A stretch of DNA of 57,263 bases from a bacterium (GTDB lineage Bacteria; Actinomycetota; Acidimicrobiia; Spongiisociales; Spongiisociaceae), in the NCBI GenBank assembly GCA_028820935.1, contig JAPPHZ010000014.1, forward strand, positions 1 through 57,263, given 5' to 3'. A program made the translations under genes and the position numbers. The notes below the pieces were generated by a model. The model ran no database searches. It was not told where the DNA came from and saw only the letters and a program-made list of their open reading frames with translations. Shown in pieces: positions 25,408-31,278 of the stretch; the first letter of the stretch is position 1, and the number at the start of each line of letters is the position of its first letter.

Positions 25408-27449
<2,042 letters not shown>

Positions 27450-27453
<4 letters not shown>

Positions 27454-28397
27454 TACACGAGAACGCCCTCGACGCCATCGGCCGGACGCCCCTGGTCCGG
27501 ATGGCCCGACTCCATCCACCAGGCAACCTGGTAGCCAAGCTGGACTACCTGAACCCGGCGGGGTCCGTCAAGGAGCGGATCGCGGTCAACATGATCGACC
27601 ACGCCGAGCGGGACGGGCTGCTGGGTCCGGGAGGGACGATCATCGAGCCCACCTCGGGTAACACCGGGGCCGGCCTGGCCATGGTCGGGGCGGTCCGGGG
27701 TTACCGGGTGATATGCACGGTCCCCGACAAGGTCGCGACCGAGAAGATCCGCCTGCTCGAGGCCTACGGAGCGGAGGTCATCGTCACCCCCACGAACCTG
27801 CTCCCGGAGGACGAAGACTCCTACTACGGCGTCGCCCGCCGCCTCACCGAGGAGATCGACGGTGCCTTCAGCCCCGACCAGTACTCCAACCCGTCCAACC
27901 CGGAGGCCCACTACCTGACGACCGGACCGGAGGTGTGGGAACAGACCGATGGGGAGATCGATGTGTTCGTGGCGGGTGTTGGCACGGGTGGGACGATCTC
28001 GGGGACGGGACGGTACCTGCGGGAGCGCAAGCCGTCGGTGGAACTGGTGGGGGCCGATCCGGAAGGATCGATATACACCGCGCCTCGCGAGGAGGACATC
28101 CACCAGTACCGGGTGGAGGGCGTCGGGGAGGACTTCTGGCCTGAAACTCTCGACCGGGACATCGTCGACCGCTACATCATGGTCGACGACCAGCAGTCGT
28201 TCGACATGGCCAGGCGGGTAGCCGAGTGCGAGGGACTGTTGATCGGCGGCTCCGGGGGGATGGCGGTGCATGCGGCGCTCGAGGTTGCGGCGGAGGACAC
28301 CGGCCGCCTGGTGGTGGTCCTGCTGCCCGATTCGGGCCGGGGCTACCTGTCGAAGATCTGGAGCGAGGAGTGGCTGGCTGAACACGGCCTCGTGTGA
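27450..28397 (+). CDS. Cysteine synthase / cystathionine beta-synthase family PLP enzyme
   Basis: A 315-residue fold-type II PLP enzyme. The lysine is in [16 protein letters not shown], the substrate loop is [11 protein letters not shown] and the phosphate-binding loop is [15 protein letters not shown]. The ending ([23 protein letters not shown]) is closer to cystathionine beta-synthases than to CysK. The C-terminal CBS-domain pair of many actinobacterial CBS proteins is absent. It would make cysteine or cystathionine from an activated serine. The GTG at 27450 overlaps the upstream stop by 4 nt, so the two proteins are translationally coupled. Confidence 0.88.
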
Positions 28398-28430
28398 GCG
28401 GGCCAGCACTCGCCGACCACCGACGAAAGA

Positions 28431-28461
28431 AGTCCGGGACCCCATAATGGGGCCCCGGACT
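28431..28461 (-). terminator. Rho-independent terminator, minus strand (possibly two-way)
   Basis: Two 13-nt arms, 28431-28443 and 28449-28461, pair at 12 of 13 positions around the 5-nt loop ATAAT. Read on the minus strand the stem is followed by TCTTTCGTC, a modest U-rich tail, so it ends a minus-strand transcript best. It also lies 34 nt past the cysteine/cystathionine synthase stop on the plus strand and could stop that transcript, though no T run follows on that side. Confidence 0.8.
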
Positions 28462-28479
28462 ACGTTCAATCCAGAATGC

Positions 28480-28611
28480 TTACCCGTACTTCATCGTGAG
28501 ATCCTTAACCCCACCTGATGCCGCATGAGGACCGGCATGCGGACGGGAAAGCTCGGTGGTCCGAGTTGGAGTCGCCACCTGACCGGCGGTCACGCCCTTG
28601 AGGGCGGCCAC
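28480..28611 (-). CDS. Candidate 43-residue small protein under attenuator-like leader
   Basis: Reading from GTG 28611 to TAA 28480 gives 43 residues beginning MAALKGVTAG and ending GGVKDLTMKYG. No known family is recognised and there is no signal peptide or Cys. It is included because of its setting: a 14-residue leader ORF with a very strong ribosome-binding site lies 19 nt upstream, its start codon lies in a hairpin arm, and a terminator follows. In-frame GTG codons at 28593 and 28581 are alternative starts. Equally, the whole segment may be a structured non-coding RNA, since several perfect short hairpins fill it. Confidence 0.35.
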   Translation of the reverse strand: MAALKGVTAGQVATPTRTTELSRPHAGPHAASGGVKDLTMKYG

Positions 28612-28645
28612 CGGTAGCGACCCGTGGCCGCTAGCGCTCGGCCAC
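28604..28645 (-). promoter_or_regulatory. Mutually exclusive hairpins (attenuator-like)
   Basis: On the minus strand three arms occur in order: GTGGCCG (28645-28639, inside the leader ORF), CGGCCAC (28630-28624) and GTGGCCGC (28611-28604). Arm 2 can pair perfectly with arm 1 (7 bp, with the leader stop codon in the loop). It can also pair with arm 3 (8 bp counting the preceding G), but not with both. Arm 3 contains the GTG start of the 43-residue frame. This is the arrangement expected of a translational attenuator; regulation itself is inferred. Confidence 0.5.
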
Positions 28646-28675
28646 CTCCAGGGTCCTACAAGAACTGTCTAACAA
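28631..28675 (-). CDS. Candidate 14-residue leader peptide
   Basis: A TTG start at 28675 is placed nine bases after AGGAGG in AGAAAGGAGGTGATCC, a 16-nt match to the full anti-Shine-Dalgarno tail of 16S rRNA and the strongest ribosome-binding site in the window. It encodes MLDSSCRTLEVAER, with one Cys codon, and stops at TAG 28633-28631. An overlapping frame starting at GTG 28685 would give nine residues. A TATATT hexamer at 28712-28707 is a possible -10 element. Confidence 0.4.
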   Translation of the reverse strand: MLDSSCRTLEVAER

Positions 28676-28883
28676 GTCGGATCACCTCCTTTCTCTGGTA
28701 GGCGCCAATATAGCGGCCCGTTGTGCATGAGAGGTGCATGGCGGGCCGGCGGGACCTTCCCGAGGACCCAGCCCGCAGGCGACGACCGGCCACCCTCAGG
28801 CTCACAACGTCACACACGGTGCCGTGAACCTGAGGCTCAGAACGTCACATATGACGCCCTCTGCCTCAAGAACCGCCTAGCGC

Positions 28884-29205: not shown

Positions 29206-29814
29206 TCAGAGGGCGTCCGCCAGGGCGCCCCACAGGTCGGCCAAGGCGGACCCCAACCCTCCCAGCGCCCAGCGCAGGACGAGCGCCACCACGGCGACCC
29301 CGGCGGCGGCGAAGATCATCCGGAGCCGGTAGGTGATCGTCTCCTCGCTGTCCTCCAGGTAGGAGGGATTGGCCACCGGCGCCCGCGCCAAGGCACGCCG
29401 GCGCCCTAGGGATTGCCTGGCGGCCGAGATCAGCTTCGACTGGGGGGACTCGGGGAAATCGAGAGGTTCCCGATCCGGATGTGTCAGGAGGTTCGGCTCC
29501 TCCTGCAACTCCACGATCTCGATGTCGTACAGGGTGTCCTCATCCAGCCCGGCCTCCGGCTCGGGCGGCGGCAACAGCTTCCTGTGCTCGTGGACCCGCC
29601 GCAGGGCTTCCTCCAGGAGGGGCATCGGCAGCTTCAGCGTCGTGGACAGATCAACCAACTCATCGCTGTCGGGAATAGCCGAGCCCTGCTCCCAGCCGAC
29701 CACCACCTCGATCGGCCGGCCGGTCCGGGCGGCGATGTCCACCACGGAGACATCCATCTCCTCGCGGCGCTTCGCGAACAGGCGTGCGAACGCCAGCCCT
29801 CCGTCCGGAGACAT
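29206..29814 (-). CDS. XRE-type HTH protein with C-terminal membrane anchor
   Basis: A 202-residue protein. Residues about 8-70 form a helix-turn-helix domain (FAKRREEMDVSVVDIAARTG, VVVGWEQGSAIPDSDEL). A charged linker follows, with a hydrophobic segment near 166-190. HTH plus a single C-terminal membrane span recalls RodZ-like topology, but the RodZ periplasmic domain is missing. It may be a membrane-tethered regulator or partner protein. The ATG overlaps the stop of the upstream 134-residue gene by 1 nt (TGATG), so the pair is coupled. Confidence 0.75.
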   Translation of the reverse strand: MSPDGGLAFARLFAKRREEMDVSVVDIAARTGRPIEVVVGWEQGSAIPDSDELVDLSTTLKLPMPLLEEALRRVHEHRKLLPPPEPEAGLDEDTLYDIEIVELQEEPNLLTHPDREPLDFPESPQSKLISAARQSLGRRRALARAPVANPSYLEDSEETITYRLRMIFAAAGVAVVALVLRWALGGLGSALADLWGALADAL

Positions 29815-31183: not shown

Positions 31184-31278
31184 TGGCGGAGGCGGACGGG
31201 AATCGAACCCGCCGGGGCACTCTCGCACCCCCACTGGTTTTGAAGACCAGGGAGCCCACCAGGCGCTCGTTCGCCTCC
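31184..31278 (-). tRNA. selC: tRNA-Sec (anticodon UCA)
   Basis: A 95-nt tRNA gene with an encoded 3' CCA. On the minus strand it starts GGAGGCGA and has the anticodon arm CTGGTCTTCAAAACCAG with anticodon TCA in loop CTTCAAA. A long variable arm (about TGGGGGTGCGAGAGTGCCCC) and a T arm GCGGGTTCGATTCCCGT follow. The anticodon and long acceptor and variable arms identify selenocysteine tRNA, which is charged with Ser and converted to Sec. The eighth acceptor pair looks like A-C. A Sec-containing gene lies at 38745; selA, selB and selD are not in the window. Confidence 0.95.

Follow-up and report, generated by a model that had tools for sequence, protein, structure and literature searches.

The minus strand of the window, as the whole analysed stretch of 57,263 nt is called here, carries a small structured RNA with a short open reading frame (ORF) inside its fold. 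Comparative analysis indicates that the element is a real, stand-alone RNA gene of about 270 nt. It is well supported that this gene is a homologue of Ms_IGR-5 (RF02471, "Actinobacteria sRNA"), a family that on the same kind of evidence extends beyond Actinobacteria over several phyla. Tentatively, and with a probability a little short of even, we propose that the RNA works as a translation-gated structural switch. The features of the locus are the following:

27378-28397, plus strand: convergent PLP-dependent, cysteine-synthase-like gene outside the RNA unit (Pfam PALP, 261 bits)
28707-28712, minus strand: TATATT, putative -10 element, at the same position in congeners
28679-28694, minus strand: extended Shine-Dalgarno (SD) sequence AGAAAGGAGGTGATCC, seen in the sequence and near-invariant in the family as GAAAGGAGGTGRTCC
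28631-28675, minus strand: 14-codon mini-ORF TTG...TAG (MLDSSCRTLEVAER), start and stop positions conserved
28652-28657, minus strand: 5' strand of the pseudoknot, AGGACC, pairing with 28533-28528 (covariation)
28643-28648, minus strand: internal SD-like GAGGTG, 9 nt ahead of the stop codon, offset identical in all elements
28637-28646, minus strand: 5' strand of P1 (region 1), final ORF codons (covariation)
28632-28636, minus strand: 5' strand of P2, reaching into the stop codon (covariation)
28624-28630, minus strand: region 2, CGGCCAC, 3' arm of the alternative hairpin with 28645-28639 (strand-swap test)
28573-28577, minus strand: 3' strand of P2, TGGCG (region 3; covariation)
28566-28572, minus strand: unpaired conserved junction ACTCCAA, in most other clades AATCCCA (alignment)
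28555-28565, minus strand: 3' strand of P1, CTCGGACCACC (region 4; covariation)
28521-28542, minus strand: hairpin P3 with the 8-nt loop CCGGTCCT (double changes in six of seven pairs)
28528-28533, minus strand: 3' strand of the pseudoknot, GGTCCT, within the P3 loop (covariation)
28483-28547, minus strand: outer stem P4 around P3, CCCGT (28547-28543) with ACGGG (28487-28483) (sequence comparison only)
28431-28461, minus strand: intrinsic terminator, 14-bp stem followed by TCTTTC (prediction)

The RNA is flanked by the convergent gene on one side and by a hypothetical ORF (29206-29814, minus strand), for which no Pfam family was matched, on the other. Its 5' start would lie at about 28699. TATATT would serve as the -10 element; TGTGGCANNAT-like motifs are found with equal spacing in the rest of the order, and a sigma-70 consensus search gave no match with a -35. 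The window RNA has the stand-alone pattern of a promoter-like motif and a terminator of its own, and terminator-like hairpins are also present 3' of the element in many relatives. The minus strand folded at -137 kcal/mol, compared with -111 +/- 5.9 kcal/mol for dinucleotide shuffles (z -4.4). The counterpart of P4 in other families is GGAGAT/RTCTCC.

An earlier note on this DNA had listed a TATATT hexamer, a 16-nt anti-SD match, a 14-codon leader ORF with one Cys codon, three arms together with small stems, and a terminator with a U-rich tail. All of these are present in the sequence: TATATT lies at 28712-28707, the arms read GTGGCCG, CGGCCAC and GTGGCCG, AGAAAGGAGGTGATCC (28694-28679) is complementary to the 16S 3' end over 16 nt, the ORF is TTG-initiated (28675-28631), and the 14-bp terminator stem (28461-28431) is followed by TCTTTC. 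A 43-residue frame, which the note had considered as a translationally attenuated small protein, did not withstand the comparison. Besides the window, only one of nine congeners keeps 43 residues (L005); in the others the frame is frameshifted or truncated, in L010 it is without a start, and no same-strand gene lies downstream.

Two further observations were made around the locus. About 100-150 nt upstream of the RNA, at approximately 28852-28793 on the minus strand, a partly palindromic 21-nt sequence is present in two nearly identical copies, TGTGACGTTCTGAGCCTCAGG and TGTGACGTTGTGAGCCTGAGG. The sole tRNA gene of the window is a selenocysteine tRNA gene at 31188-31278 on the minus strand (Rfam tRNA-Sec 76.6 bits; ARAGORN tRNA-SeC).

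The assignment to Ms_IGR-5 was based on several searches. BLASTN with a 301-base query revealed single-copy homologues in 48 of 59 relatives from the same genus, family and order, and the SD, the ORF and the set of arms formed their constant core. A covariance model of 33 Acidimicrobiia elements (R1) had matches in 67 of 148 Acidimicrobiia genomes, with one copy in nearly all of them, including the genome of the window. Over this search and that of Actinomycetota with the model R2 described below, the genomes G140, G279 and G425 had two copies each. At the gathering threshold, Rfam gave no family at the RNA locus. In a permissive search, the window aligned end to end with RF02471 (positions 1-184, 21.6 bits, E 0.011), which is below the gathering cut-off of 45, and one homologue from the same class reached 45.9 bits. 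When 296 Actinomycetota genomes were searched with RF02471, matches were found in 56, the class of the window included, and the loci share the ORF ending of the window. Conversely, R1 recovered mycobacterial and streptomycete Ms_IGR-5 loci with E-values, derived from a short calibration as for all our models, of 1e-13 to 6e-4, most of them below 1e-5. Because a model built from Acidimicrobiia only recognises these copies, the homology is well supported, and the window RNA would be a homologue of Ms_IGR-5 whose Rfam score falls short of formal membership. The likeness comprises the end-to-end model alignment, the same extended SD, a downstream hairpin with GTCC in the loop, and similar ORF endings (TCEVAAR before the stop in mycobacterial Ms_IGR-5, TLEVAER in the window). 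The structured RNA of an unrecognised class that the earlier note had offered as its second option has therefore found a relative, and the Rfam search that it had proposed was fruitless at the gathering threshold and informative below it.

Further candidates were set aside. CC2171 (RF01867, a Caulobacter sRNA) also is a small structured RNA with GAAAGGAGGUGAUCC near its 5' end and a G+C-rich hairpin at its end, but its consensus lacks the GAGGTG-N9-stop arrangement and has another closing helix; as a member of the same family it was rejected on this consensus, and the window scored 21.9 bits against it, below the cut-off of 75. It looks unrelated, and with it Alphaproteobacteria may have arrived independently at a solution of this type. 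An 18-bit match to Pxr was mainly due to the terminator, and no tmRNA was found by ARAGORN or Rfam in the window.

A pattern scan of GTDB added elements from Nitrospinae, "Deltaproteobacteria", Spirochaetia, Zixibacteria, Sumerlaeota and Bryobacterales (Acidobacteria), and the Zixibacteria copy scored 55.9 bits with RF02471, above the cut-off. A second covariance model (R2) was built from 48 diverse elements. At a threshold of E <= 0.001, and with some of the matches belonging to the training set, it detected the RNA in 94 of 246 Actinomycetota genomes, in 30 of 149 genomes of the Bryobacterales phylum, in 7 of 149 of the Spirochaetia phylum, in 15 of 18 sampled genomes of the Nitrospinae phylum, and a few times in the phylum of two "Deltaproteobacteria". 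A strict pattern search of the phylum of one of the latter (L128) gave 2 matches in 118, one of them a false match inside a gene. The SD and the ORF sequence account for much of the model scores, and therefore the case for the remote matches draws on the stop-codon and pairing tests described below as well. Phylum names outside Actinobacteria were taken from the record titles of metagenome-assembled genomes, where misbinning can occur; for Nitrospinae, the Bryobacterales phylum and Spirochaetia, the repeated finds within each group argue against it, and this argument is weaker for the single finds in Zixibacteria and Sumerlaeota.

The mini-ORF was analyzed in 212 elements, a set that had been filtered beforehand for a stop at the expected place; just three pattern matches, in two genomes, had failed this filter. 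The start codon lies 9-12 nt past GGAGG in nearly all elements. It is in frame with the stop although the length from SD to stop occurs in all three phases (90, 67 and 55 elements). ATG, GTG or TTG is used in 183 of the 212, and nearly all of the remaining 29 have CTG, ATA, ATC, ATT or ACG at this position. The stop (TAG in 140 cases, TGA in 46, TAA in 26) follows exactly 15 nt after the G of the internal GAGGTG, and the 20 loci detected by the covariance model R2 only keep the start position and this same stop distance. The pattern-only match L221, which lies within a coding gene, is without this GAGGTG-stop signature. The leader ORF is genuine, and by every comparative sign it is translated.

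Its peptide is not conserved. Across the order, the amino acids encoded at the N-terminus change without visible constraint, which argues against a peptide function, and the final codons are fixed where RNA elements lie. A role of the RNA in encoding a functional micropeptide (12-14 residues) is hardly credible: the strong initiation site, the conserved frame and the E-V residues would fit, but the N-terminal half is free to vary, the conserved residues coincide with RNA elements (GGAC, GAGGTG, P1), and the peptide sequences differ among phyla. Likewise, the conservation of a nascent peptide that a ribosome-arrest peptide should show is absent, and only RNA-constrained positions are kept. The Cys codon gives way to Ser, Tyr, His, Asp, Leu and others in relatives. 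Cysteine sensing, suggested by this codon and the adjoining cysteine-synthase-like gene, was discarded, as neither the codon nor the neighbour is conserved.

The internal GAGGTG ends 9 nt before the stop, which would put it where an SD normally stands relative to the P site of a terminating ribosome. It is partly fixed by P1, and its role as an SD is therefore inseparable from the structure by these data. Two variants were seen. In L240-L243 of the Bryobacterales phylum, the extended SD has gained one base (GGAGGATGRTCC) and the ORF is longer, and the stop position is still 15 nt past GAG. L232 and L233 have an 18-codon ORF with two in-frame GAGGTG copies, only the second of which has the stop at the fixed distance.

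Covariation supports four interactions at the RNA level, namely P1, P2, the pseudoknot and a competing hairpin around the stop codon. P1 joins the last ORF codons with a strand about 90 nt downstream. Among Acidimicrobiia, 94.0% of the cells of P1, P3 and the pseudoknot were paired, both-side changes occurred in 9 of 23 pairs, and 61 double-change cells were counted versus 18.5 in shuffled data, a value that 0 of 500 shuffles reached. Across phyla, P1 and P2 were paired in 96.3% of the cells, with 57 double-change cells versus 16.8 (0 of 500), and a single P1/P2 pair was seen as GC, CG, AU, UG and UA.

A strand-swap test, in which each 5' strand was paired with the 3' strand from other species, was performed after removal of sequences more than 80% alike, and its permutations ignore relatedness. 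It gave z values of -15.1 for P1 (r1:r4) and -15.4 for P2, which are inflated since the 3' anchors had partly been chosen by complementarity; with motif-only anchors they were -10.8 and -7.5. The competing hairpin (r1:r2) had z -5.7. Unrelated pairs (r2:r4, r1:r3, SD with other regions) were near zero, as was r3:r4 (z -1.0), so that the classical terminator-type alternative was discarded. There was also no covariation between the SD and region 4 (z -0.8), and sequestration of the SD by a conserved anti-SD strand (GGACCACC, 16S-3'-end-like) was dismissed for lack of such a signal.

The pseudoknot covaried with z 6.6. Its strands are GGACC/GGTCC in Actinobacteria, TGAC/GTCA in Spirochaetes, CGGTGA/TCACCG in L223 and TACGGTG/CACCGTA in L238. 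An apparent terminator right after P1 replaces P3 in L128, Nitrospinae, Zixibacteria and Sumerlaeota. The single-sequence fold of the window favours the local hairpin over P1 (probability 0.14, SD part omitted), and P1 therefore rests on covariation. The mutually exclusive hairpins of the earlier note stand in principle, and arms 1 and 2 form the alternative hairpin that is conserved; the second partner had been misnamed, because it is the strand 28565-28555, and the third arm is missing even from L010, a member of the genus of the window. The pseudoknot, P1 and P2, the internal GAGGTG at a fixed distance from the stop, and the breadth of the family are absent from that note.

A leader ORF with mutually exclusive hairpins is reminiscent of the ribosome-mediated attenuators of the trp/cys type, which share the strong SD and the alternative pairings of a strand within the ORF, and about half of 28 inspected loci have a same-strand gene next (crude ORF calls). 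Nevertheless, a cis-acting attenuator or leader for a downstream gene is very improbable. The next gene is convergent in the window, where position 28397 is the end of that gene and no regulated same-strand gene was found downstream of the RNA, and in many relatives; no neighbour is conserved across the 28 loci (again by crude ORF calls), and neighbours differ between clades. Furthermore, the leader ORF is without a conserved run of regulatory codons, and the terminator is outside the switch, in neither of the alternative folds.

The comparative data show the translated frame, P1, P2, the pseudoknot, the alternative hairpin and the stand-alone context, and the switch proposed above would connect them as follows. 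While the RNA is being transcribed, the final stretch of the ORF (region 1, 28646-28637) would pair first with region 2 (28630-28624) around the stop codon. Once regions 3 and 4 are made, region 1 would refold into P1 and P2, and the pseudoknot between the ORF and the P3 loop would lock this state. A 30S subunit would bind to the extended SD, and the distance from the start codon to P1 in ORFs of 12-14 codons would just let the initiating ribosome sit before P1. Because the conserved fold runs through the mini-gene, translation and folding should be mutually exclusive: the pairing strands overlap or adjoin the ORF, and a ribosome that translates it would remove the pairings, and translation of the 12-14 codons would open the pseudoknot, P1 and P2. 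At the stop codon, GAGGTG at the canonical SD distance from the P site may hold the terminating ribosome. The RNA would thus have two states, folded with little translation, or open and ribosome-bound when ribosomes are plentiful or held. Since a conserved downstream gene is absent, the output is probably in trans or the ribosome itself, e.g., via the 3' domain, RNA stability or ribosome binding rather than regulation of a gene that follows it. It could also be that the alternative hairpin is just an intermediate of folding. A more far-reaching version, to which we give a probability of roughly a third, is that of a hitherto unrecognised multi-phylum class of translated, pseudoknotted, bistable RNAs that sense or buffer ribosome availability, in which translation of a meaningless mini-ORF is the signal and the SD inside the ORF holds the terminating ribosome.

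Homologues of Ms_IGR-5 were found to be ribosome-protected in M. abscessus and M. smegmatis; the authors cautioned that many ncRNAs show such footprints, which may be a general artefact for structured RNAs (PMC4974804). By RNA-seq, homologues were detected in S. lividans (PMC8079986) and S. avermitilis (PMC8780764), and expression has been published for Streptomyces and M. smegmatis (PMC8079986, PMC8780764, PMC10454040). The open-access papers on Ms_IGR-5 assign no function to it. No description of the ORF, the pseudoknot or the cross-phylum range was found in the open-access literature, to which the search was confined, and the consensus structure printed in Rfam is without P1, P2 and pseudoknot and marks no ORF.

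The ribosome protection would also suit a decoy or parking RNA, in which the extended and the internal SD hold 30S or 70S particles and the fold does no more than position or protect the molecule. For this unlikely reading speak also the 16S complement of 13-16 nt and the GAGGTG, which in every element is 9 nt away from the stop. However, a decoy role alone leaves the conserved alternative hairpin unexplained, and one copy per genome is a further point against it. Improbable as well is a trans-acting structured sRNA whose translation only stabilises or clears it, without switching; the stand-alone unit, the strong covariation and the absence of conserved neighbours agree with it, but the alternative hairpin and the exact placement of stop and internal SD are left unexplained.

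6S RNA and Ms1 are global stand-alone RNAs that engage a core machine, RNA polymerase. The RNA described here, also stand-alone, may likewise engage such a machine, in its case the ribosome; the comparison is one by analogy, not by sequence or structure.

An Rfam-listed "actinobacterial" sRNA hereby gains a fold of two helices, a pseudoknot and an alternative hairpin, and a mini-ORF with unusual rules, i.e., an extended SD, tolerance of near-cognate starts and a stop at a fixed distance from an internal SD. Its host range is widened to several phyla and includes mycobacteria and streptomycetes that are tractable in the laboratory, and direct tests by single-nucleotide mutants are now possible. 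If the translation-gated switch or the parking of ribosomes is true, the family would be to translation what 6S RNA is to transcription.
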